NCBI GenBank assembly: GCA_019637265.1
Contig: JAHBVY010000002.1
Coordinates: 1 to 64,000 of the forward strand
Reading direction: 5' to 3'
DNA length: 64,000 nucleotides
Source: Polyangiaceae bacterium
GTDB lineage: Bacteria > Myxococcota_A > Polyangia > Polyangiales > Polyangiaceae
Shown: positions 4,642 to 51,808 of the stretch, in pieces
Numbering within the stretch: position 1 is the stretch's first letter
Layout: each line of letters opens with the position of its first letter
Notes under the pieces: model-generated
What the model saw: only the letters and a program-made list of their open reading frames with translations
Database searches by the model: none
Told to the model about the DNA's origin: nothing
Program-made: the position numbers and the translations under genes

Positions 4642-5934
4642 CTAATAGTCCTCGCTAAGGAGACCCTCACCGGATCCTTTCGCGGCGGGCTTCGGGTGCG
4701 CAGGCTTCGACGCCGGTTTGGCTCGAGGAGCAGGCTGAGCCTTCGGCGCAGCGGCTGCCGCCGGTTGCGCTACCGGCTTAGGCGTTGGCGCAGCGGCTGG
4801 CGCCGGCTGCGCTGCGGCATTCGTCTCACTCGGCCCCGCGCTTGGCTCAGCAGCTGCGGTTGGCACCGGCGCTCCCGGCTCGCCAGGCGCGGCCGCCGGC
4901 TCATCCGGCGCAGGCTCGCCAGTCGCAGCGGGCGCCTTCTCACCCGGCTCAGGCTCACCGGTTGCCGCCTGGCCCGGCGCATTCGTCAGGGTGGCTGGCG
5001 TAGTAGAAGCCTCCACGCCTGCCCCACGCTGCTGACCGATCCACACGCCCAGCCCGAGCACACCGAAGAGCAGCGGCACGACCCAAAGGGCGCGCAGCTT
5101 GCTGCGCTTACTTTCAGCCTCGGCGTGCGGTGTGGCCACGCTGCTCGGCACGAAGGCGCTGGGGGTGCGCTCGCTAGCCGCCGCATCGCTAGCGCTCGCG
5201 GCGCTCGCGGCGGGAGCGCGCTCGCTCGGCGCCGCATCGCCAGCCTCCAAGTCGCTCGCAGCAATGGCAGCCTTATCCGGCTTACTCGTGGCTGCGCTGG
5301 TGGCAGTCGCTGCAACTGACCCAACCGCCTGCGCCTTCAGCCTCGCGGTGCTGGGGATCGTCACTGCATTGCGTGACGACTCACCCTCGCTCCGCCCCGC
5401 ATCTTGCACCCCGACCGCACCGAGAACGCCGCGCGCCGCCTCGCTGCTTGGCTCGTCGCCCGCTTCGCCCGAAGCCTCAGCCTGCGTTACTTCGCCTACG
5501 TCGCCAGCCGCCGCCGCGGCTTGCGCCGCGTTCACGTCGGCCGCAGCCAGCTCATCAGCTGACGATGCCTCGGCACTCGTGTCGACTTCAGGCAGTGCAG
5601 CTGACGATGTCTCACCCCGCACGATGACCACATCGGCTTCGGGCGTCGACGCACCCCCAGCTGGCGACGCGCCGGGCTCGAGCTTCGGCAGCGTCACCCA
5701 CCGCTGCTTCCGCATCGCCGCCACCACGGGCGCCGTCGGCTCACGCTTCCCCTTCAGCACGCCCTCCAGCGCGAACGGAGGCTCCAGCTGACGCTCCGTC
5801 CGATCACGCCGCGGCGCCACGGCGCCCTGGTCATCCGGATCACCCGTCAGCTCACCCAACACCCCCTTCGCCTGTGGATCCCCGCCCAAGAGCCACGGCT
5901 CGATGGTGTCCCCGCTGTGCTTGCGCTCCGTCAT
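4642..5934 (-). CDS. Ala/Pro-rich single-span membrane protein coupled to kinase
   Basis: Predicted 430-residue protein I do not recognise. The ATG at 5934 overlaps the stop of the upstream kinase gene in an ATGA arrangement, so the two are translationally coupled; the longer frame upstream would overlap the kinase further. Residues 1-60 are charged and polar (MTERKHSGDTIEPWLLGGDPQ), followed by a low-complexity Ala/Ser/Glu region. One transmembrane segment at about 280-302 (WVVPLLFGVLGLGVWIG) precedes a Pro/Ala/Lys-rich tail ending GLLSEDY. The tail resembles periplasm-spanning PA/PK linkers of TonB-like proteins, but no TonB domain is present. Coupling suggests it is a partner or substrate of the kinase. 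Confidence 0.75.
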   Translation of the reverse strand: MTERKHSGDTIEPWLLGGDPQAKGVLGELTGDPDDQGAVAPRRDRTERQLEPPFALEGVLKGKREPTAPVVAAMRKQRWVTLPKLEPGASPAGGASTPEADVVIVRGETSSAALPEVDTSAEASSADELAAADVNAAQAAAAAGDVGEVTQAEASGEAGDEPSSEAARGVLGAVGVQDAGRSEGESSRNAVTIPSTARLKAQAVGSVAATATSAATSKPDKAAIAASDLEAGDAAPSERAPAASAASASDAAASERTPSAFVPSSVATPHAEAESKRSKLRALWVVPLLFGVLGLGVWIGQQRGAGVEASTTPATLTNAPGQAATGEPEPGEKAPAATGEPAPDEPAAAPGEPGAPVPTAAAEPSAGPSETNAAAQPAPAAAPTPKPVAQPAAAAAPKAQPAPRAKPASKPAHPKPAAKGSGEGLLSEDY

Positions 5935-8045
5935 CGGCGCCCTCCCTTCGCTGGTGGAGCGGCGGACGGCGCCGGGCTCGCGGAGCCGCTCGCTGCGCCT
6001 TGCTTCGTGAGCCACTTGTCGGGGCCGTCGCTCGTGATCTCCTCCACCATCTCCTTGATATCCTCTGGGCTAACCCCAAGCTCTGCCTCCGTGAGCTCCC
6101 CGCTCGACGCGCTGGGAGCAGGTGCTGTCGCAGGGGTGGGTGCTGTCGCAGGGGCGGGTGCTGTCGCAGGGGTGGGTGCTGTCGCCGAGGCGGGTGCGGC
6201 CGCAGCGGGGGGAGCGGCCGAAACATCAGGAAGACTGACGCTGGCCGCGGGCGCGGCAGCCTCCTCAGATTTCGTGAGCGCTCTCACCCCAAGCCAGACG
6301 CCGATGATGATGGCTCCCAGCGTGATCCCGGCGGCCATCCCGTGCCAGGCATTCAAGGCCCGAGGCTCGTTGCTCGCAGACAAAGGCTGTGAGCCAGCAG
6401 GAGGTGGCGTGCTCTTGGCCGGTCCCTCGGACGCCATCGGCGCGGCGTTCGCTCCCGCCCCTTGCACGGCGCCTCCCGGATTGCCGTGTCCTTGCACGGC
6501 CCTCCCGTGTTGCGGGTGACCTCGCTGCGCGTGCCCTTGCCACGCATGCCCGGCAGCTCCAGGCGCACCGTACTGCACCTGCCCCGGCGGTCCGTATCCC
6601 TGACCTGGCGGCGCCTGCCCAGCGGCTCCCGGCGGTCCGTATCCCTGACCTTGGGGCGCATGACCGGCAGCTCCCGGCGCACCGTACCCCTGACCTGGTT
6701 GCGCATTCCCAGCGACTCCCGGCGCATGCCCCTGCGCGCGACCTCGAGCCGCCCCCGGTGTACCGTACCTCTGCGCGTCTCGAGCAGCGCCTCCCGGTGC
6801 ATACATCCCCTGCACCTCCCCGGGCGCCAAATGCACGCGCTGTTTCCCTGGCGAAACACCTTGAGGCGTACCGCCCGGAGCCACCCCAGCGCCGCGCGGC
6901 GCCTCTGAAGGAGCCTCATGGGGACGCAGCAAGCCAGCGCTCTCGGCCGCAGCCGCCGCCGCGCTGAACGCCGCCTTCAGCTCTTCGCGGCGCGTCTCGG
7001 GCATGCGGAACGTGCCACCGTCAGTGTAGCTGCCTTGCGGCGGGTTGAGGATCGTCGCGTCCGACAGCGGCTCGAACGAATCGAGCACCTCCTGCAGCGG
7101 GGCCGTCGACTGAAGCCCCTTCGCGACGACCCGAGGGCGCGCCACCGCCGCGTCCGGGTTGCCGTTCCTCACCGCCGCGTTCAACGCGCGACGCCGCGCG
7201 TCACGCAGCGCGTAGCCGAAATCCAGCATGGTCTGGAACCGCGCGTTGGGGTCCTTCTGCACCGCCCGCTTCACGATCGTCCAGACGTACTCCGGGAAGC
7301 CGGGGAGCACGTCGGGGAGCGGATCGGGATCCATCCCCTCGTGCCGGAGCAGCAGCTCATGCGGCGTGGGCTCACGGCCCGGGGGCATGAACGGGTGCCA
7401 CCCAGCCATCATCTCGTACAGCACGATGCCCAGCGCGTACACGTCCGAGCGCCCGTCTACTAGCTCGCTCTGCCCACTGCAGTGCTCGGGCGACATGTAG
7501 GGCAACGTGCCACGCACCTTGTGTGCGCCCGTCGTCTTGAAGCCGAGGCCCTGCACCTTCGCGATGCCGAGGTCCAGCACCTTCACCTCGTTCGCGTGCG
7601 TGACGAACACGTTCTCCGGCTTGACGTCCCGGTGGATCACCCCAATCTCGTGCGCCGCCTGCAGCGCGTCCGCGATCTGACTCCCGTAGTACAGCGTCGG
7701 CGCGATCTGGACCCGCGGCTCCTGCTGCATCAGCTCACGCAGCGTGTGACCCTTCAGCAGGTCCATCGCGTACCAAAACAGGCCCTCCGGCTCCAGCAAC
7801 CCCGCGTCGTGCACCCGCACGATGTTCCCGTGTTGCATCGTGCTCATCAGCACCGCCTCACGCTGCCAACGCTCGATCGCCCCCTCCACGAACGACTCAC
7901 GCAGGTTCATGATCTTCAGCGCGCGGACGATCCCGAGCAACCGGTGACGCGCCGAGTAGACGCAACCCGTCCCACCGCTCGCGAGCTCCTCGATGAGCTC
8001 GTAGTTCCCAACGACCTTCCCTTTTGTAAACGGTAGCTTTTCCAC
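5931..8045 (-). CDS. Hanks-type Ser/Thr protein kinase, membrane anchored
   Basis: Transfers phosphate from ATP to Ser/Thr of unknown targets. GTG at 8045 is chosen: it has GAGG 9 bases upstream and starts 14 residues before the kinase fold; the frame stays open to 8282 but that would overlap the ogt gene. With this start the kinase domain covers about 14-280: Gly-rich loop ASGGTG at 22-27, ATP-anchoring Lys44 (ALKIM), alpha-C Glu63, catalytic HRDVKPEN at 138-145 and metal-binding DLG at 158-160. A Gly/Pro/Gln-rich linker with repeats of QGYGPPG type follows, then a transmembrane segment at about 570-589 and a short C-terminal part with an 18-bp tandem DNA repeat near 6120-6185 encoding (ATAP[TA]P)n. 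It is active-looking. The next gene overlaps by 4 bases. Confidence 0.9.
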   Translation of the reverse strand: MEKLPFTKGKVVGNYELIEELASGGTGCVYSARHRLLGIVRALKIMNLRESFVEGAIERWQREAVLMSTMQHGNIVRVHDAGLLEPEGLFWYAMDLLKGHTLRELMQQEPRVQIAPTLYYGSQIADALQAAHEIGVIHRDVKPENVFVTHANEVKVLDLGIAKVQGLGFKTTGAHKVRGTLPYMSPEHCSGQSELVDGRSDVYALGIVLYEMMAGWHPFMPPGREPTPHELLLRHEGMDPDPLPDVLPGFPEYVWTIVKRAVQKDPNARFQTMLDFGYALRDARRRALNAAVRNGNPDAAVARPRVVAKGLQSTAPLQEVLDSFEPLSDATILNPPQGSYTDGGTFRMPETRREELKAAFSAAAAAAESAGLLRPHEAPSEAPRGAGVAPGGTPQGVSPGKQRVHLAPGEVQGMYAPGGAARDAQRYGTPGAARGRAQGHAPGVAGNAQPGQGYGAPGAAGHAPQGQGYGPPGAAGQAPPGQGYGPPGQVQYGAPGAAGHAWQGHAQRGHPQHGRAVQGHGNPGGAVQGAGANAAPMASEGPAKSTPPPAGSQPLSASNEPRALNAWHGMAAGITLGAIIIGVWLGVRALTKSEEAAAPAASVSLPDVSAAPPAAAAPASATAPTPATAPAPATAPTPATAPAPSASSGELTEAELGVSPEDIKEMVEEITSDGPDKWLTKQGAASGSASPAPSAAPPAKGGRR

Positions 8046-14927: not shown

Positions 14928-15713
14928 CTAACGCGAGGCGACTCGCTTCGTCTTCGAGGCACGTTTGGCGTCGCCAGGTGCCTTCGTGCTGCGCTTCGCG
15001 TCACGCGCCTTGGCGCTCTTCGCGTCACCCTGGGGCGGCACCTTCGCGCTCTTCGCGGCGCCTTTCGGCTCAGGCGCCTTCCCGCTCTTCGCATCACCCT
15101 GGGGCGGCACCTTCGCGCTCTTCGCGTCACGCGCCTTGGCGCTCTTCGCGTCACCCTGGGGCGGCGCCTTGGCGCTCTTCGCGGTGACCTTCGGGGGCGG
15201 CACCAGCTTGGCGATCAGCTCCTTGCGGTAGTTCACCACGCGCCAGGTGCCGTCGCCGGGGACGCACCAGCGGCCGAGCTTGGGGCTATTGCGCCCTTGG
15301 TAGCTCGCGAGCCACTCGTGGAACCAGACGCGACCGAGCTTCTCCTGGCAGAGCTCGCGGTTGGCGGTGATGAGCGCCCCCATGCGGCGGATGTTGGTCA
15401 CGCCGTCGAGCAGCCGCTCCTTCGCCGCCTGGCAAGCGGGGGACGGATCGCTGACGGGGTCCACATCATCGCGACAGCCGGCCACGAAGCGCGCGCGGAT
15501 CTGGCCGAGGCCGTAGTCCTCACCGTCCGCGGAGATCACGCGCGGGTGCCAGTAGCTCTCGAAGTGGATGATGGCGACGCCCGTCAGCGGGTCGAAGTCG
15601 CGCGCCTTCGCCTCGGCTTGCAGCGCCTCGGCGTAGCGCTTGGCCTCCGCCTCGGGGATCTGAGGGCGCGACAGTTGAATCGCCGCGATGATGACGGCCA
15701 GCGGACGGATCAC
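14928..15713 (-). CDS. Lytic transglycosylase-like exported protein with Lys/Ala-rich tail
   Basis: Predicted 261-residue peptidoglycan-cleaving enzyme of the SLT/goose-lysozyme-like fold. GTG at 15713 is chosen because a hydrophobic export segment (IRPLAVIIAAIQL) starts there; the frame is open further upstream but without a signal. The catalytic Glu is probably Glu52 in HFESYWHPRVIS, followed by DYGLGQIRARF, the usual GLGQ-type signature. Several Cys residues may form disulfides. The C-terminal 85 residues are a basic repeat (KSAKAPPQGDAKSAK types) encoded by near-identical DNA repeats at about 14990-15190, plausibly binding anionic wall polymers. It is divergent from the tetR-led efflux operon. 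Confidence 0.8.
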   Translation of the reverse strand: MIRPLAVIIAAIQLSRPQIPEAEAKRYAEALQAEAKARDFDPLTGVAIIHFESYWHPRVISADGEDYGLGQIRARFVAGCRDDVDPVSDPSPACQAAKERLLDGVTNIRRMGALITANRELCQEKLGRVWFHEWLASYQGRNSPKLGRWCVPGDGTWRVVNYRKELIAKLVPPPKVTAKSAKAPPQGDAKSAKARDAKSAKVPPQGDAKSGKAPEPKGAAKSAKVPPQGDAKSAKARDAKRSTKAPGDAKRASKTKRVASR

Positions 15714-25946: not shown

Positions 25947-26054
25947 GCCAACGCCCGGTAGGGGCAGGCCCCCGTGCCTGCCCTGCCGCGCCCTACGTCT
26001 CGCGTGGGCCAACGCCCGTAGGGGCAGGCCCCCGTGCCTGCCCTGCCGCGCCCT
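25947..26054. repeat. Two direct copies of a 48-bp unit with GTAGGGGC palindrome
   Basis: A 48-49-base unit (25946-25994 and 26007-26054) is repeated with a single indel, each containing GGGCAGGC-N6-GCCTGCCC. The pair starts immediately after the OmpA-family stop codon. The palindrome could stabilise or terminate the transcript; it belongs to the same family as the elements at 14239, 30016 and 51783. Confidence 0.75.
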
Positions 26055-26072: not shown

Positions 26073-26164
26073 GCGTCAGGAACCCTTACGAATCGTCACG
26101 CGGCGCCCCACCTGACTTGCACAGGCTCGGCGTCAGGCAGTCTTACGAATCGTCGCGCGGCGCC
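26073..26164. repeat. Duplicated 3' end of rbfA
   Basis: A 35-base segment at 26130-26164, covering the last codons and stop of rbfA plus 13 bases beyond, recurs at 26073-26107 with 31 of 35 bases identical. The downstream copy is noncoding. The period is 57 bases. Confidence 0.7.
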
Positions 26165-26553
26165 TCGGACGGTGGGAGCGCCGCTGGCGGCGCCTCCTCG
26201 CCCTGGCTCAGCTCGTCCAGGATGCGCGTCACCTGGCGCTCGTTGTCGACGCCGACGTCGTAGTAGAAGCGCAGCTCGGGCAGGCGCTTCATCCGCACCT
26301 CGCGCCCCAGGGCGCGCCGCAGGTGCCCTGCCATGCTCCCGAGTGAGCTCATCAGGCGCCGCCGGCTCTTCTCGTCGTCCCCCGCGAGCAAGCGCACGTT
26401 CACCTTGGCGATGCCGAGGTCGTCAGTCATGTGCACGGAGGTGATCACCAGCGCCGCGAGGCGCGGGTCGTCCGCTTCCTTGCGGATCAGCTCCGCGAGC
26501 CGCGCCCGGAGGCCTTCGGCCACGCGCTGGGGCCGCATCCCGTCACTCTTCAT
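26143..26553 (-). CDS. rbfA: 30S ribosome-binding factor A
   Basis: Small KH-domain protein that helps 16S rRNA processing and 30S maturation. The 136-residue protein shows the family hallmarks RPQRVAEGLRARLAELI at the N-terminus, VITSVHMTDDLGIAKVNV in the middle and LPELRFYYDVGVDNERQVTRILDEL near the end. ATG at 26553 lies 9 bases after the infB stop, matching the common nusA-infB-rbfA order, and it is the last gene of the operon here; truB does not follow. The C-terminal 20 residues are a Pro/Ala tail whose coding end is duplicated downstream. Confidence 0.96.
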   Translation of the reverse strand: MKSDGMRPQRVAEGLRARLAELIRKEADDPRLAALVITSVHMTDDLGIAKVNVRLLAGDDEKSRRRLMSSLGSMAGHLRRALGREVRMKRLPELRFYYDVGVDNERQVTRILDELSQGEEAPPAALPPSEAPRDDS

Positions 26554-26562
26554 GGGTGTGAC

Positions 26563-29265
26563 TCAGAGCGTCTGCTTGACCTGCTCGAACTCGAAGGCCT
26601 CCACCTGGTCGCCCACCTCGAGGCCGCTGAAGCCGTCCACCGAGAGGCCGCACTCGAAGCCGTTCTTCACCTCACGCACGTCGTCCTTGAAGCGCTTGAG
26701 GCTCGTGATCTTCCCTTCGTGGATCACCACGCCATCACGCAGTACGCGGGCGCCCGCGTTACGGCGCACGAGGCCATCCGTTATCATGCAGCCCGCGATG
26801 GTGCCCGCCTTGGAGACGCGGAACACCTGCAGCACCTCCGCCTTGCCGAGCGCGCGCTCCACCAGGGTGGGCGCCAAGAGGCCCTCCATGCTGGCCTTCA
26901 CGTCGTCCACCACGGCGTAGATGATCTCGTAGCGGCGGATCTCGATGCCCTCTTGCTGCGCGAGCTGCGCGGCCTTGCCCGCGGGGCGCACGTTGAACCC
27001 GATGATCATGGCGTCCGCCGCGACCGCCAGGTTCACGTCGCTCTCGGTGATGCTGCCGGCCGCGGCGTGCACCACGGTGACCTTCACCTTCTCGGTGCTG
27101 AGCTGCTCCAGCGAAGACCGCAGCGCCTCCACCGAGCCCTGCACGTCCGCCTTGATGATGACCTTCAGCTCGAGCGCCTGGCTCTGGCTCATCTGCCGCG
27201 CCAGCTCCTCCAGCGACATCTTGTGGGGGCGCGGCGCGATGGTGCTGGAGCGGTTCTTGGATTTACGCTGCGCCGCGATCTCCTGCGCCTTCTTCAGGTC
27301 CTTCACGGCGTGAACCGAGTCACCCGCGAAGGGCACGTCGTCGAGCCCGATGACGGACACCGGCGTGGAGGGGCCGGCTTCGTTCACCTTGCGCCCAGTG
27401 TGGTCGTGCATCGCGCGGATCTTGCCGAAGGCGCGGCCCGCGAGGATGTAGTCGCCGCGGTGCAGCGTGCCGTCGGTCACCAGCACCGTGGCGAGGGCGC
27501 CCATGCCGCGATCGAGCTGCGCCTCCACCACCACGCCGTCCGCCGGGTTCTTCGGGTTCGCGCGCAGCTCGAGCACCTCCGCCTGGAGGATCACTTGCTC
27601 GAGCAGGTTGTCGATGCCCTGCCCGGTGGCGGCGGACACCTCGGTGAACAAGGTGTCGCCACCCCACTCCTCCGGGACCAGCCGCTGCTCGCTCAGCTCG
27701 CGCCGCACGCGCTCGGGCTGCGCCTGCTCTTTGTCAATCTTGTTGACCGCCACCACGATCGGCACGCCCGCGGCGCGCGCGTGGTTGATGGCCTCCTTCG
27801 TCTGAGGCATCACGCCGTCGTCCGCCGCCACCACCAGGATGACGAGGTCGGTGCACTTCGCGCCGCGCGCCCGCATGGCGGAGAACGCCGCGTGACCTGG
27901 GGTATCCAGGAAGGTGATCTTCCCGTGCTTGGTCTTCACCGAGTAGGCGCCGATGTGCTGCGTGATGCCGCCCGCCTCACCGGCCGCGACGTCCGCCTTG
28001 CGGATGCGATCGAGCAAGCTCGTCTTGCCGTGATCGACGTGGCCCATCACCGCCACCACGGGCGGCCTCGGGATGCTGTCCATGTCCTCGACGCTGGCCG
28101 CCTCTTCTTCCTCGAAGCCGCGCGCCGCCTTGAGCGCCTCTTCCTCGCTCACCGCGACGTTCTCGACCTCCCAACCAAACTCGTTGGCGACGATCTTCGC
28201 GGTGTCGGCGTCGAGCGTGCTGTTGATGTGCACGCCGCTCATCCCCAGCTGCATCAGCTTGGTGAGCAGCTGGTTCGCCTTGAGGCCCATGCGCTGGCCG
28301 AGCTGCTGCAGCGTGATGGTGTCCTCGATGCGGACCACCTTCTTATGCGCGGAGCGCTCCTGAGTGAGGATGGCGCCGCCACCGCGCTTGGGCGCCAACG
28401 GGAAGCGCCGGTTACCCGGGCGCCCACCAGGACCTGGCCGCATCGACCCGGGCCCCATCGGGCCACGACCGCGCGGGCCTCCACCGGGGCCAGCGCCCGC
28501 CTTGGCGTCGTACTGCACGCGGCGCGGCGTGGGGCCACGCGGCGCTTGCGGCATCGGCACGCCGGGGCGGCCCTTCCACACGTCGATGCCCGTCTTCGGG
28601 GCGGTGCTGGGGCGAGAAGCCGCCGAAGCCGCCGCCGGCGGTGGTTCGGAAGCCTGCTCAGACTGGCTGACGACTGGCGCTGCGGGAGCGGCCGCCACGG
28701 GCGGCTCGGATACGGGCGCCTCGGGGGGCGGCGGCAGCGCGGGCTCCGCGCGCGCGGGCTCCGGCTCCGGCGCGGGCGACGGGGCCTCCTTCACCTGGCT
28801 TTGAACCGAGGGCGCGGGCGGAGCCTCCTCCACCACGGGCGGGCGCGGCGGCTCGGGCGCGGGAGGCTCTACGGCGGGCGCGACTGGCGCGGGGGCCTCG
28901 AGCGCCGGCGGAGGAGCTGCGGGGCGCGCCTCCACCACCACGACGGGCGGCGGCTCGGGCTCCACGGGCGCCGCCGAGGCGGTGGGCGATGAACGTGGCG
29001 GCGTGAGCGGCGCTGCCGAGGCGGTGGGCGACGAGACGTCGGCGCGGCGGCGCCGCTTCACCACGGTGGCGTGGATGCGCTGCTCCTCCACCTTCTCACC
29101 GTTTTGCTTGTCGAGGTGACGCCTCACCCGATCGACCACATCCGCGGGCACCGCGCTCATGTGATTCCGGACCTCGGGCACCCCAAGATCCCGCAACAAG
29201 GTCATGACCGCCTTGTTGTCGATGCCCAGCTCACGGGCGACCTCGTACACACGCACCTTACTCAT
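26563..29265 (-). CDS. infB: Translation initiation factor IF-2
   Basis: GTPase that brings initiator tRNA to the 30S subunit. At 900 residues it is a long IF-2. The N-terminal IF2_N domain ([25 protein letters not shown]) is followed by a Pro/Ala/Glu-rich linker to about residue 230 and a Gly/Arg-rich stretch, then a second IF2_N region. The GTPase domain has G1 [10 protein letters not shown]3 DTPGH, G4 NKID; domains II-IV follow with the tRNA-binding end [24 protein letters not shown]. Its ATG overlaps the ylxR stop (ATGA). The low-complexity linker is the expected variable part. Confidence 0.97.
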
Positions 29266-36840: not shown

Positions 36841-36941
36841 CTACCACGCGTGGCGCCGCTCACCCGCTGCGATCGCGCTCACCATCTGATCGTCAGCGGG
36901 CGACTACCACGCGTGGCGCTGCTCACCCGCTGCGATCGCGC
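36841..36941. repeat. Duplicated 3' end of the FecR-VIT-vWA gene
   Basis: The last 38 bases of the giant gene, from its TAG stop codon inwards (36904-36941), recur at 36841-36878 with 37 of 38 identical. The noncoding copy lies directly before the ATG of the FG-GAP lipoprotein gene. Period 63 bases. Confidence 0.8.
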
Positions 36942-39900
36942 CGCGGGTCACCTTCACGGTGAAGCGCTGACCATCCCAGCGGATGTCGCTGCGAACCAGG
37001 GCGATGGGATCATCCGAGAGGTCGCTCATCAGCTGCGCCGTGTAGCGCAAGCGCTCGTAGTCGCTGTTCGGCACCAGGGCCGCGCTGAGCCCGACCTCCA
37101 CCGCGTGGTTCACGTCGCCCACGTGCGCCAGCACGTCGCCCTCGAAGGTGAGCAGGTTCACCCGCGCGGCGAGATCTTCCCACGTGAGGATGACCAAGGT
37201 GCCCTCGCCGCTGAACAGCTGCAGCTCCTTCAGCTTGCGCTCGAGGTTCGCCTTGCGACGCTCCGGGTCGGTGGGTGGCTGCCCCGGCGGGTCCGCGGGC
37301 GGCTCCGCCAAGAGCCGCGCGAAGCCCGCCGCGGACAAGAGCTTGGCCCACTGCCGTGGATCCTTCGGGCCCGGCGTGCCCTCCGCGCTCGCCACCTGAC
37401 GCTGGATACGCAGCGCCTCATCGGTGCGCCCGCTGCCCGCCGCGGCCGCCGCGAGCCGCAGATCGGCGATGGGGCTGTTCGGCTGCAGCTCACCCAGGGT
37501 GCGGTACTGACGGTAGGCCGGCTCATACCAGCCGCGCGCCAAGTAGATGTCGCCGAGCAGGCCGCGCGACGCGGGGTTCGCGGGATCGAACTCGACGATC
37601 TCCGAGTAGGTGCGCACCGCCTCCGCGTCGAGCTTGGCGCGCGCTAGTACGTCGCCCAGACGACGCGCGATGTCGGGCGTCATGAAGCCGCGGTCGCGCA
37701 GCCGGCGACCGTGCGCCAGCGCCTCGTCCTTCTTGCCGCTCTCGCTCAGCAGCTTCACGAGCCGAATGTCGCCGTTCGGATCCTCCGGCGCCTGAGCCAT
37801 GAAGGCGCGCAGCCGCGCGATGCGCTTGTCCAGATCCTTGATCTCGCTGAGCTCGCGATCCACGTCAGCCCAGGTGACCTTCGAGCCGAACAGCTCGCGC
37901 TCCACGGCGAGGCGCAGCGCGCTGTCCACGCTGCGGCGCAGCAAGAGCTTGGCGACGAACTTCTGCACGTCCGGGCGCCCGGTGAACAGCCGCAGCATGC
38001 TCACCGCCGCCTCAGGGGTGCTCACCCGCGCCTGCATCAGCTCGAGGAAGGCGCGCTCGCTGCGCCAGTCCTTGAGCTCACAGCCTTCGTACGCCGAGCG
38101 GTAGCGGTCGATGAGGTCGCTCGCGGTGCTCACCGTGGCGAGACGGCGGCGCCACAGCAGCATCCGCTCGGCCAGCGGGCGCTCCGCGGCGTCGCTGCAG
38201 GTGCGCACCAGGTAAACGTCAGGTGGCCTGATGGATGGCATCGCCGGGTCGAACGAGTCCATGCTGGGCGCGGGGTTGGGCGCGGCGAGCGCGCCGGACT
38301 CCTTGCGGTTCTTCTCCAAAGCGTAGGCGCGCTGAGGTGCGGGCCGCGCGAGGCCACCCGGGGCGTTGCCGTAGCCGCGCCCGGAGTGGCCGATGCTCCC
38401 GCCGCCGAGCGCCCCCAGATCGCCAGGCTTGGACTCCTCCAGCTCTGGGGCGGGCTCGTAAGCTGGCGCGGGAGCGACGGGCGACGGCTGGTCGCCCGAT
38501 TCGCCCTCTTGGTCAGCCATGCTGCTCACCACGCCGCTCTGCTGCTCACCGCCCTTGTCGTACTCAGCTGGCGGCGCGGCCGCGCCCACCGGCGCTTCGT
38601 CCTTGCTCAGGGTGCGCTCGATCTGACTGCACCCGAGCGCCACCTCCGGCACCGTGGGCGCGCCGAGCGTCTTCGTCAGGCGCCACTCCGCTTCACGGCT
38701 CAGCGCGCCGAGCCGCACACCGCGCAGCGGCGAGCTGCGCCGCTGGATCCCCATGCGGCTGTACGCCGCCTCACTCTCGAGCGCCAAGATGCTGGTGAAC
38801 GGCGTCATCAGGCCGTACTCGAGGCCCAGCGAGGAGATGCGGCCGCGCTCCGCCTCCGCGCCTTGGGCCGAGCCGAGCAAGCGCCGCACGTACTCCGCGG
38901 CCCAGAGCCGCGGCACGAAGGCTTGAATCACCGAGTCGTCGACCTTCACCGGGTAGCTCTTCTCGAACGGCTTCCCCGCGAGCTGCCCGCGCACCTTCAC
39001 CTCCGAAGGCAGCTCGTGGTGCGTGCGCGCCAGAAGGACGACCTCCTGACCTTGGCTCACCTTGCCGCTGTTACTGACGAAGGGCTCATCGAGGCCCGCG
39101 CCCAGGTCCATCTCGAAGTCCGTGAGCGTCGGGCGCTTCACGCTGGAGAGCAGCGCCAAGGCCTCCGTGGTGGTGTGGTCCGTCTCCTCCACCGTGAAGC
39201 GCTCCCCGCCGCCCGCGCGCGCGAGCTCCCCGAGCAGCGCGTGATCCGACTCGGGGCCGACGGCCACCGTGAACAGCCGCGCGCGGCTGGTGCTGAGCGC
39301 GCGCCGCAGGCGCTCGATCAGCTGCTCCCCGGTGAGCTCGCCGCTGGTGGCGACGCCATCCCCCAAGTACACCACCGCGGGCTGCGCCGCGCCGTGCAGG
39401 CGCTTCAGCGACACGTCGAACGACGACGCCAGATCCGTCGCGCCGCCGCTCGAGTGCTCCGCGAGCGCGGCGAGCGCCGCCGCTATTTCTCCCTCCGTCG
39501 CTGACGCGAGGCCCTCCTTCGGGTGCAGCACCGTGGTGCGCACGTCGACGCTCACCAGCGCGAAGCGATCTTTGTCGCTCATCGCGCGCAGCACGGCCTC
39601 CGCCGTCTGCGCCTTCAGCTGCCGACTGGCCTCGTCACCCGCTGCGGAGGTGTCCACCACCACCACCACCTCGGCGGGGGGCGCCTCCGCGGTGCTCCAG
39701 TCGATGTCCGGCGTGTAGCGCGCGAGCAGGTAGTCCGCCGTCTCGCCGCGCGCCTTGTAGCGCGCGATGCGCAGCGGCGGGCGGTCCTCCTTGAAGCTCG
39801 CCTCCAGCTGGAAGTCGGCGCGCGGAGTGAACCCGGAGCGGCGCATCGTCACGCGGCGGCCCTTCTCCTCCAAGCGCGCGTCGGCGAGCGTCGCTATTTT

Positions 39901-41067
39901 CATCTTCTCCCCCGCCTCACCGAGATCCACCGTGAGCGAGAACTCACCGATGCGCACCGGCTCCCCGCGCCCCATCGGGTAGAGGTACTCGAGCAAGTCA
40001 CCCACCACCGGCCGAAGCTCGAGGTAGCGGAGCACCACGCGGCGCGTTTGGCCGCTCTTCACGGGGAAAATGCGCGCGCGGTAGGTGCTCTGGTTCACCC
40101 ACTCGAGCAGCGCCGGCGCGTGACCACTCGAGCGCGCGGCGCTGTAGCCCGCTTGGGCTTCGCGGCGCTCTTGGAACTCACCTTCCACCAAGCTGCCGTC
40201 CGTCTCCACCGCGAAGCCCGTGACGCTGGCCGACGCGGGGAGGGTGAACCAGTACCACCCCTCCACGTCGCGCCCGCCCGGGTTGAAGAAGGTCTGGTCG
40301 ACCTCCGTTTCGGCCAGCCCGCCGCGCACCACCGCGCGCACCGCCTGCTTCGAGATCTCGAGCTTCCTCGCTTGGCTCCCGAGCGGCGCGCCCACGTCCA
40401 CCCCGTAGATCGTCCCGCCGCCCACACCGGCGCGCCCCTTCCCGGCGTAATCTGCCATCCCGCCGGTCCAGTCGTCCCAGAAGCCGAGCGGCGCCACCTC
40501 GGGCGCGCTCGCGCCCTTCACCGTCGCTTGCTCACCGGCGTTCACCTCCACGCGCCCCCCCGGCGACGTCACCGTCGCCATCCCCGCGGCGACGTAGACC
40601 ACCGTCAGCTCCCCATCGCGCCGCAAGCTGACGCCCGCCTCCGCCGCGGAGACGCTCACCTCACCCAGCTGGTGCGTCAACGCGCGGCGATCGCTCGGCG
40701 GCGCGCTGAGCCAATACTCGCCGCGCGCGAGGTCCACCTGACCATCACCCAGCTTGACCTGACTGTCTCCACGTAGGAACACGGTGGCACCGTCAGGCAA
40801 CCTCACCAAAGCTCGCGCGCCCGCGCCCGTCGTGAGCGACGCGTCGGAGAGCAGCGCCATCCCGTTGGTGCCCCGCTCCTCACCGCGCCCGCGGTCCACC
40901 CGCACGTCGCCGCTCGACAGCTCGAGCCGCGCCTGGATCGCGGGCGCCGCGCTCGGCGGCGGCGGGCGCCGCACCACGTAGACGACGGCCGCAGAGCCCA
41001 CCAGCACCGCCGACACCAACCCCAAACGGATGAGCCAAGCTTTGATCGGACTACCCTTCGTACTCAT
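36904..41067 (-). CDS. FecR-VIT-vWA-TPR giant membrane protein
   Basis: Predicted 1387-residue protein. ATG at 41067 has GGAGAG upstream. One transmembrane segment at about 10-32 is followed by a FecR domain (about 45-190; LELSSGDVRV, GARALVRLPDGATVFLRGDSQV), a VIT domain (about 235-360; ETEVDQTFFNPGGRDVEGWYWFTLP, a match to inter-alpha-trypsin inhibitor heavy chains), and a vWA domain (about 475-640). The vWA MIDAS is partly degenerate: DTSAAG replaces DxSxS, whereas the later GGATDL and YLGDGVAT are kept. Helical, TPR-like repeats with long loops fill the C-terminal half (YSEIVEFDPANPASRGLLGDIYLARGWYEPAYRQY). Extracytoplasmic, probably a large adhesive or scaffold protein. It follows a second vWA gene by about 240 bases. 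Confidence 0.88.
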   Translation of the reverse strand: MSTKGSPIKAWLIRLGLVSAVLVGSAAVVYVVRRPPPPSAAPAIQARLELSSGDVRVDRGRGEERGTNGMALLSDASLTTGAGARALVRLPDGATVFLRGDSQVKLGDGQVDLARGEYWLSAPPSDRRALTHQLGEVSVSAAEAGVSLRRDGELTVVYVAAGMATVTSPGGRVEVNAGEQATVKGASAPEVAPLGFWDDWTGGMADYAGKGRAGVGGGTIYGVDVGAPLGSQARKLEISKQAVRAVVRGGLAETEVDQTFFNPGGRDVEGWYWFTLPASASVTGFAVETDGSLVEGEFQERREAQAGYSAARSSGHAPALLEWVNQSTYRARIFPVKSGQTRRVVLRYLELRPVVGDLLEYLYPMGRGEPVRIGEFSLTVDLGEAGEKMKIATLADARLEEKGRRVTMRRSGFTPRADFQLEASFKEDRPPLRIARYKARGETADYLLARYTPDIDWSTAEAPPAEVVVVVDTSAAGDEASRQLKAQTAEAVLRAMSDKDRFALVSVDVRTTVLHPKEGLASATEGEIAAALAALAEHSSGGATDLASSFDVSLKRLHGAAQPAVVYLGDGVATSGELTGEQLIERLRRALSTSRARLFTVAVGPESDHALLGELARAGGGERFTVEETDHTTTEALALLSSVKRPTLTDFEMDLGAGLDEPFVSNSGKVSQGQEVVLLARTHHELPSEVKVRGQLAGKPFEKSYPVKVDDSVIQAFVPRLWAAEYVRRLLGSAQGAEAERGRISSLGLEYGLMTPFTSILALESEAAYSRMGIQRRSSPLRGVRLGALSREAEWRLTKTLGAPTVPEVALGCSQIERTLSKDEAPVGAAAPPAEYDKGGEQQSGVVSSMADQEGESGDQPSPVAPAPAYEPAPELEESKPGDLGALGGGSIGHSGRGYGNAPGGLARPAPQRAYALEKNRKESGALAAPNPAPSMDSFDPAMPSIRPPDVYLVRTCSDAAERPLAERMLLWRRRLATVSTASDLIDRYRSAYEGCELKDWRSERAFLELMQARVSTPEAAVSMLRLFTGRPDVQKFVAKLLLRRSVDSALRLAVERELFGSKVTWADVDRELSEIKDLDKRIARLRAFMAQAPEDPNGDIRLVKLLSESGKKDEALAHGRRLRDRGFMTPDIARRLGDVLARAKLDAEAVRTYSEIVEFDPANPASRGLLGDIYLARGWYEPAYRQYRTLGELQPNSPIADLRLAAAAAGSGRTDEALRIQRQVASAEGTPGPKDPRQWAKLLSAAGFARLLAEPPADPPGQPPTDPERRKANLERKLKELQLFSGEGTLVILTWEDLAARVNLLTFEGDVLAHVGDVNHAVEVGLSAALVPNSDYERLRYTAQLMSDLSDDPIALVRSDIRWDGQRFTVKVTRGAIAAGEQRHAW

Positions 41068-41207
41068 GTCGCTCTCTCCCAATGGCTGACGCTCATCACT
41101 CGCGCCGCTGATGCACTGAAACCTGATGGCGCGCTGAAGCGCCGCGCCCTGCCCATGAGCGCGCTCACGACTCGCCCCGGTGGCGCCGCTCGCGGCCGCC
41201 CGCGTCC

Positions 41208-48780: not shown

Positions 48781-48853
48781 CTCAGCGCACGCGCCCCAAA
48801 CTTCAGCGCACGCGCCCCAAACCTCAGCGCACGCGCCCCAAACCTCAGCGCAC
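48781..48853. repeat. Tandem 21-bp array covering the 3' end of pyk
   Basis: Units of 21 bp (CTCAGCGCACGCGCCCCAAA type) at 48781-48801, 48802-48822, 48823-48843 and a partial unit 48844-48853. The partial unit contains the pyk stop codon (48845-48847), so the array is an expansion of the gene's 3' end into noncoding DNA. One base differs in the second unit. Confidence 0.85.
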
Positions 48854-50248
48854 CAGCTCCACCCGAATCGCGCTCGTCGACCCCCGGAGCCCGATCGGCG
48901 CGCCGTAGGTCATCACGAAGCGCTGCCCAGCCTGGGCCAGGCCCAGCTCCTTCAACACCCCGCTGGCGCGGCGCACCAGCTGATCCACGTCGCCGCCCGA
49001 CATGTCGAGGTAACGCGGGATCACGCCCCAGTAGAGCGCGAGGCGACGCAGGGTCTTCTCGTCCGGGCTGAGCGCGAGGATCGGCGCTGGGGGGCGCGCC
49101 TTGGAGATCAAGCGCGCGGTGCCGCCGCTCTCGGTGAGCGCCACCAAGATGCTGGCGTGGATGGTCTTGGCGACGTCACACGCGGCGTTCGCGATCGCCT
49201 CCGGGGTGCTGTCACCCGGCTCCGACGGCAGCGGGTTGTAGAAGCGACTCGACTCCGCCTGACGGATGATGCGGTCCATCATCGCGCAGGCGCGCAGCGG
49301 GTAGCTCCCGGTGGCGGTCTCCGCGCTGAGCATCACCGCGTCGGCGCCATCGAAGATGGCGCCAGCGACGTCGCTCGCCTCGGCGCGCGTGGGGCGCGGA
49401 GCGTCCACCATCGACTGCAGCATCTCCGTCGCCACGATGACGGGCCGCTGATGCCGCCGGCAGGTGCCGATGATCTCCTTCTGCATCACCGGCACCATCT
49501 CCGGCGGCAGCTCCACCCCCAAGTCGCCGCGCGCCACCATCACGGCGTCCGCGGCGCGCACGATAGGGTCGATCTGCTCCACCGCGCTCGGCGTCTCGAT
49601 CTTGGCGACGATGGGCGTCACCCGCCCGTGCACCTCCATCAGCTGGCGCAGCTCCCGGATATCGTCAGCATGACGAACGAATGACAGCGCCACCAGGTCG
49701 ACGCCGATGTCGAGCCCCACCTCCAGGTCACGCCTGTCTTTGTCGGTGAGCGCGCTGAGCCGCACCCGCTTCGAGGGCAGGTTCACGCCCATGCGCGAGC
49801 GCACCGCGCCGCCGTGCAGCACCCGAGTTTCCACACGGAATTCACGGATGAGCACCACCTCCAGCTCCACCTGGCCGTCGCCCAAGAGGATGCGATCCCC
49901 CGGGCGCACGTCCTCCGTCAGCCCCTGGTAGTCGATGGCGATGGTGTCCGCGCTGCCGCTCGATCCCTCCACCAAGGAGACGGTGGCGCCGGCCTCCACC
50001 AGGCTCGGCCCCTCGAAGCCCGTGCGGATCTTGGGGCCACACAGGTCCTGCAAGATGGCGATCGGCTTCTTGAGCTCGAGGCTCACCGCGCGGATCTGCT
50101 CGACCCTACGCCGGTGCTCTTCAGCGGTGCCATGAGAGAAGTTGAGCCGCGCCACGTCCATGCCCGCCTCGACGAGCGAGCGCAGGGCGTCCAGAGAGTC
50201 CACCGCGGGGCCCATCGTGCACACGATCTTCGCGCGACGCACTTCCAT
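48845..50248 (-). CDS. pyk: Pyruvate kinase
   Basis: Transfers phosphate from phosphoenolpyruvate to ADP in the last step of glycolysis. ATG at 50248 begins the family N-terminus (MEVRRAKIVCTMGPAVDSLDALRSLVEAGMDVARLNFSHG); the frame is open upstream to 50380 without similarity. The 467-residue protein has the A-domain motifs VAKIETPSAVEQIDPI, the MARGDLGVELPPE Mg site, EMLQSM and SAETATGSYPL, the B domain (DGQVELEV) and the C-terminal domain. It is divergent from lysA and its 3' end is extended by a 21-bp repeat array. Confidence 0.96.
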   Translation of the reverse strand: MEVRRAKIVCTMGPAVDSLDALRSLVEAGMDVARLNFSHGTAEEHRRRVEQIRAVSLELKKPIAILQDLCGPKIRTGFEGPSLVEAGATVSLVEGSSGSADTIAIDYQGLTEDVRPGDRILLGDGQVELEVVLIREFRVETRVLHGGAVRSRMGVNLPSKRVRLSALTDKDRRDLEVGLDIGVDLVALSFVRHADDIRELRQLMEVHGRVTPIVAKIETPSAVEQIDPIVRAADAVMVARGDLGVELPPEMVPVMQKEIIGTCRRHQRPVIVATEMLQSMVDAPRPTRAEASDVAGAIFDGADAVMLSAETATGSYPLRACAMMDRIIRQAESSRFYNPLPSEPGDSTPEAIANAACDVAKTIHASILVALTESGGTARLISKARPPAPILALSPDEKTLRRLALYWGVIPRYLDMSGGDVDQLVRRASGVLKELGLAQAGQRFVMTYGAPIGLRGSTSAIRVELVR

Positions 50249-50412
50249 GCGCGCGACATTGCACCCAGCGCGCGGCGAGCGCAACGCGCCTCGCTTTTGG
50301 CGTGGCGAGCACGACGCGCCTCCTTGGCTAGGGACTGTCGGCTTGGAGCTCGCGTCGGGCGTTGCTCCGTTGTGACGCATCTGTCATGTAGCGGCCGGGC
50401 AGGTTGCTCTGC

Positions 50413-51782: not shown

Positions 51783-51808
51783 GTAGGGGCAGGCCCCCGT
51801 GCCTGCCC
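51783..51808. repeat. GTAGGGGC-type palindrome after lysA
   Basis: GTAGGGGCAGGCCCCCGTGC continuing to CTGCCC, with arms GGGCAGGC / GCCTGCCC and a 6-base loop, 63 bases after the lysA stop. It is identical over its core to the two copies after the OmpA-family gene. Confidence 0.75.

Follow-up and report, generated by a model that had tools for sequence, protein, structure and literature searches.

Results

The window, i.e., the whole stretch of 64,000 nucleotides that was analysed, carries rbfA, encoding the ribosome-binding factor A (26143-26553, minus strand, 136 aa; Pfam PF02033 (RBFA), E 7.7e-23), whose stop codon (26145-26143, minus strand, TTA on the plus strand) lies within one copy of a direct repeat. 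As claimed in the original prediction, a segment of 35 nt at the end of this gene recurs at a start-to-start spacing of 57 with 31/35 identities, and our repeat search recovered both copies. The gene-side copy (26130-26164, minus strand) comprises the last six codons (APRDDS), the stop TAA and 13 bp beyond it, and the downstream, noncoding copy (26073-26107, minus strand) repeats all of these with four changes. Beyond the rbfA stop, 18 codons can be read in the rbfA frame up to a second TAA, that of the copied APRDDS-stop. The copies are separated by a spacer of 22 bp (26108-26129, minus strand); with 35 bp of the 57-bp period aligned and the other 22 bp not, no clean tandem unit can be made out.

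Chance is a very unlikely source of this likeness. When the 400 bp around the repeat were resampled with a Markov-1 model and searched at periods up to 120, the score of the rbfA repeat (23) was reached in 0 of 20000 resamples, and any local repeat with a score of at least 18 appeared in 1 of 20000. On a larger scale, 306 repeat pairs scoring at least 18 were present in 864 kb of real sequence vs. 1 in one order-3 Markov resample. Elsewhere in the genome, the 40 of 168 candidates scored included no further copy of the rbfA repeat; the best non-self match covered 18 bp (E 0.058), a level expected by chance. The repeat is therefore of local origin and does not belong to a dispersed element.

Two other genes of the window end in the same way: the FecR-VIT gene (36904-41082; Pfam VIT, VWA, FecR), where 36841-36878 repeats 36904-36941 with a period of 63, and pyk (48845-50380; Pfam PK), with a repeat of period 21 from 48776 on. 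In both the stop is included, and in all three cases the duplicated stop falls in the reading frame of its own gene and the period is a multiple of 3, the pyk end showing several in-frame stops in succession. The claim that three gene ends had been copied within 64 kb thus held, all three being present and not attributable to chance. The window holds three stop-spanning repeats where the 80 stretches described below predict 0.72 (Poisson p ~0.04); of the 89 windows of this length in the genome, about 3 would be expected to reach such a value.

A fourth repeat (25955-26054), with a period of 60, is located directly behind an OmpA-like gene and contains a dispersed palindrome, GTAGGGGCAGGCCCCCGTGCCTGCCC, at 25958-25983 and 26018-26043, which we take to be REP-like. 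The palindrome occurs again at 51783-51808 and was found at 73 genomic places with at most 3 mismatches, the reversed control giving 0. In the variant GTAGGGGCAGCCCCCCGTGGCTGCCC the stem is kept through paired changes, and several copies of the palindrome are paired, 43-60 bp apart. Tandem repeats were also observed inside two called genes on the minus strand, at 14994-15194 (periods 126/69/57; gene 14928-15713) and at 6121-6220 (period 18; gene 5931-8045), and probably correspond to repetitive protein segments.

The distribution of local repeats with respect to genes was analyzed in 80 regularly spaced stretches of 20 kb, which make up 1.6 of the 5.7 Mb of the genome (28%; 21 contigs) and exclude the window. 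Genes were called with a self-trained, home-made caller (1271 genes and 86% coding over the 80 stretches plus the window), and called start positions are for this reason especially rough. Local repeats were searched as ungapped alignments (+1/-2, score at least 18, period 12-250) and merged into clusters, and the counts expected for each class were obtained by placing the same repeat footprints at random. A total of 233 clusters was classed, while 57 were set aside for touching a gap longer than 400 bp or an end. Stop-spanning clusters numbered 18 vs. 4.01 expected (4.5 times the uniform value) and wholly intergenic ones 59 vs. 10.03 (5.9 times); there were 3 start-spanning clusters (3.80 expected), 11 mixed (17.12) and 142 coding (197.72). 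Stops exceeded starts (18 to 3, p 0.002), whereas the stop-spanning share of stop-spanning and intergenic clusters taken together was 18/77 vs. 28.6% expected (p 0.38). Stricter score cut-offs gave 16/65 (p 0.42) and 16 stops to 2 starts at 20, and 12/46 (p 0.35) and 12 to 2 at 23. Adding the window brought the counts to 21 stop-spanning, 3 start-spanning and 63 intergenic clusters (21/84, p 0.63).

The periods of coding clusters were multiples of 3 in 142/142 cases. Those of stop-spanning clusters outside the window ranged from 18 to 180, with remainders modulo 3 in the ratio 7:2:9, and the 59 intergenic clusters gave 18:14:27, where some may be missed coding repeats. An earlier, smaller sample of 40 stretches had 6 stop-spanning and 2 start-spanning clusters outside the window, and its gene caller, which missed genes, probably left coding repeats in the intergenic class. 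The excess of multiple-of-3 periods seen in that sample (7/9 with the window, 4/6 without) was gone in the larger one.

Coverage by repeat copies was profiled in 20-bp steps around gaps of 30-400 bp, the window again being excluded. Starting 80-100 bp inside the 3' end of genes, the successive values were 0.008, 0.009, 0.009, 0.015 and, in the last 20 bp of the gene, 0.027; outside they were 0.045, 0.066, 0.072, 0.087 (60-80 bp) and 0.078, and 0.077 at more than 100 bp beyond the end. Coverage in the 80-stretch sample accordingly shows no maximum at the stop codon: it grows across the 3' end of the gene and levels off further out. On the start side, the 20 bp next to the gene had a coverage of 0.007, and no step at a greater distance exceeded 0.030. 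The density of repeats per 10 kb was 11.85 in convergent gaps, 6.19 in codirectional ones and 2.23 in divergent ones; in the codirectional ones periods were multiples of 3 in 19/45 repeats, of which some may be missed coding repeats. In a search for a motif shared by the duplications, the words of gaps as a whole, compared with coding sequence, showed a modest enrichment of the CTGAC type (CTGACT 3.2 times), T or A runs and words of the dispersed palindrome. Near-perfect likeness over the full unit was found in 9/158 noncoding duplications, few being fresh enough for reading breakpoints.

Comparison with relatives, for which 400 kb each were searched, placed the overall density of this genome (6.27 repeats per 10 kb of gap) between 3.74 in G021, 0.98 in G022 (related at the family level) and 8.88 in G032, so that it is not exceptional. 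Convergent gaps were the densest in all three, although on small counts; the full order convergent > codirectional > divergent appeared in G021 only, and divergent gaps stood above codirectional ones in G022 and G032, also on small counts. By gene-end class, G021 had 1 stop-spanning, 0 start-spanning and 5 intergenic repeats and G022 had 0, 0 and 2, too few for a test. As regards the locus itself, a search among named genomes with RbfA gave no relative. Of the 52 further genomes in which RbfA was matched, 29 were examined (loci L012-L040). Some local repeat, counted anywhere in the rbfA neighbourhood, was present at 7 of the 29, which is of little weight, and the repeat pieces listed from these loci differ in sequence from that of the window. 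In the same-genus genome (G001) infB is followed by a DUF503 gene (L121:2597-2917) and the contig ends there, before rbfA, whereas in the window rbfA comes directly after infB (26553-26563).

Discussion

The repeat at the end of rbfA is very probably what is left of one short local (tandem) duplication, since decayed, and part of a genome-wide background of such duplications filtered by selection. A single duplication with a period of 57 bp would have run across the 3' end of the gene, the copying step being presumably slippage during replication or another local event of this sort. Since the coding end and the stop are retained in the gene-side copy, RbfA would have stayed unchanged; the downstream copy would then drift as noncoding DNA, apparently under neutrality, and the remaining 22 bp of the unit may have lost their likeness since. 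Across the genome, purifying selection would filter short duplications, tolerating them in gaps and over stops, leaving them rare over starts and promoters, and keeping them inside genes only when the period is a multiple of 3. Noncoding duplications that overlap a stop would survive because the protein is left unchanged, while those that overlap a start mostly would not. The coverage profile and the densities by gap type agree with such a filter. Small noncoding duplications spread over the genome, together with selection, can produce a pattern as striking as three copied gene ends in 64 kb, and the densities of repeats at stops, at starts, in intergenic and in coding DNA offer a simple yardstick for claims of a process acting at gene ends.

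The gradient from convergent to divergent gaps could have another source. Duplications might arise more often behind genes, for instance at sites of transcription termination or of encounter between convergent transcripts, in which case the gradient in this genome would reflect mutation and not only selection. We regard this as unlikely, and a mutation bias behind genes and selection elsewhere are indistinguishable with the present data.

The original prediction went further and saw in the three window cases the sign of a process that specifically duplicates gene ends, to be recognized by a genome-wide excess of repeats at stop codons. The excess was real over starts and over a uniform distribution, and to this extent speaks for a mutational process specific to stop codons or gene ends; it disappeared when stops were compared with wholly intergenic DNA, and the deficit of starts with respect to stops is equally explained by selection against start duplications. 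Since in the 80 stretches repeats are no denser at stops than in intergenic DNA and their coverage does not culminate at the stop, the data call for no stop-directed process, and we consider one very improbable. Repeats targeted to stop codons were the subject of no paper among the matches listed, which is no proof of their absence from print.

It is equally improbable that the 3' flank is a functional RNA element or a terminator that was duplicated and kept. Arms able to pair, CCTGAC (26111-26116) in the spacer and GTCAGG (26132-26137) in the gene-side copy, could belong to such an element, but the fold of the repeat region was no better than that of shuffled sequences (z -0.87, 37/200 as good), no Rfam match was obtained there up to E 1, and promoter-like or terminator-like sites in this region were none. 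Nothing found suggests any activity of the copy behind rbfA.

That the duplication is a selected backup, providing a second stop codon in frame, is scarcely credible, for although the three window cases with their multiple-of-3 periods and in-frame second stops agree with it, pyk has more successive in-frame stops than a backup needs and the periods outside the window spread as 7:2:9 with no clear in-frame excess, so that the three cases do not establish an in-frame second stop as a general feature.

The reading as a decayed local duplication can finally be set beside known kinds of bacterial repeats. Tandem repeats of constant size have been described in Bacillus and others, with a period of 52 or 20-21 nt (Subirana and Messeguer, PMC8161180). 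Like those repeats, the ones of this genome are local and differ in sequence between places of one genome; unlike them, the stop-spanning repeats have periods that are not constant, given the range reported above. The rbfA end shares with the presumably REP-like palindrome adjoining it (25958-25983, 26018-26043) the fact of being repeated, and departs from it in having no second place among the candidates scored, as against 73 for the palindrome. The closest likeness is with the close direct repeats, or short tandem duplications, of bacterial genomes, reportedly the subject of work by Achaz, Rocha and colleagues. The rbfA copies are two similar sequences at a short distance, tens of bases apart, with a likeness beyond chance, and they are local and in noncoding DNA, no further site being present among the 40 of 168 candidates scored; among the features tested nothing essential sets them apart, the stop codon lying by happenstance within one of the two.
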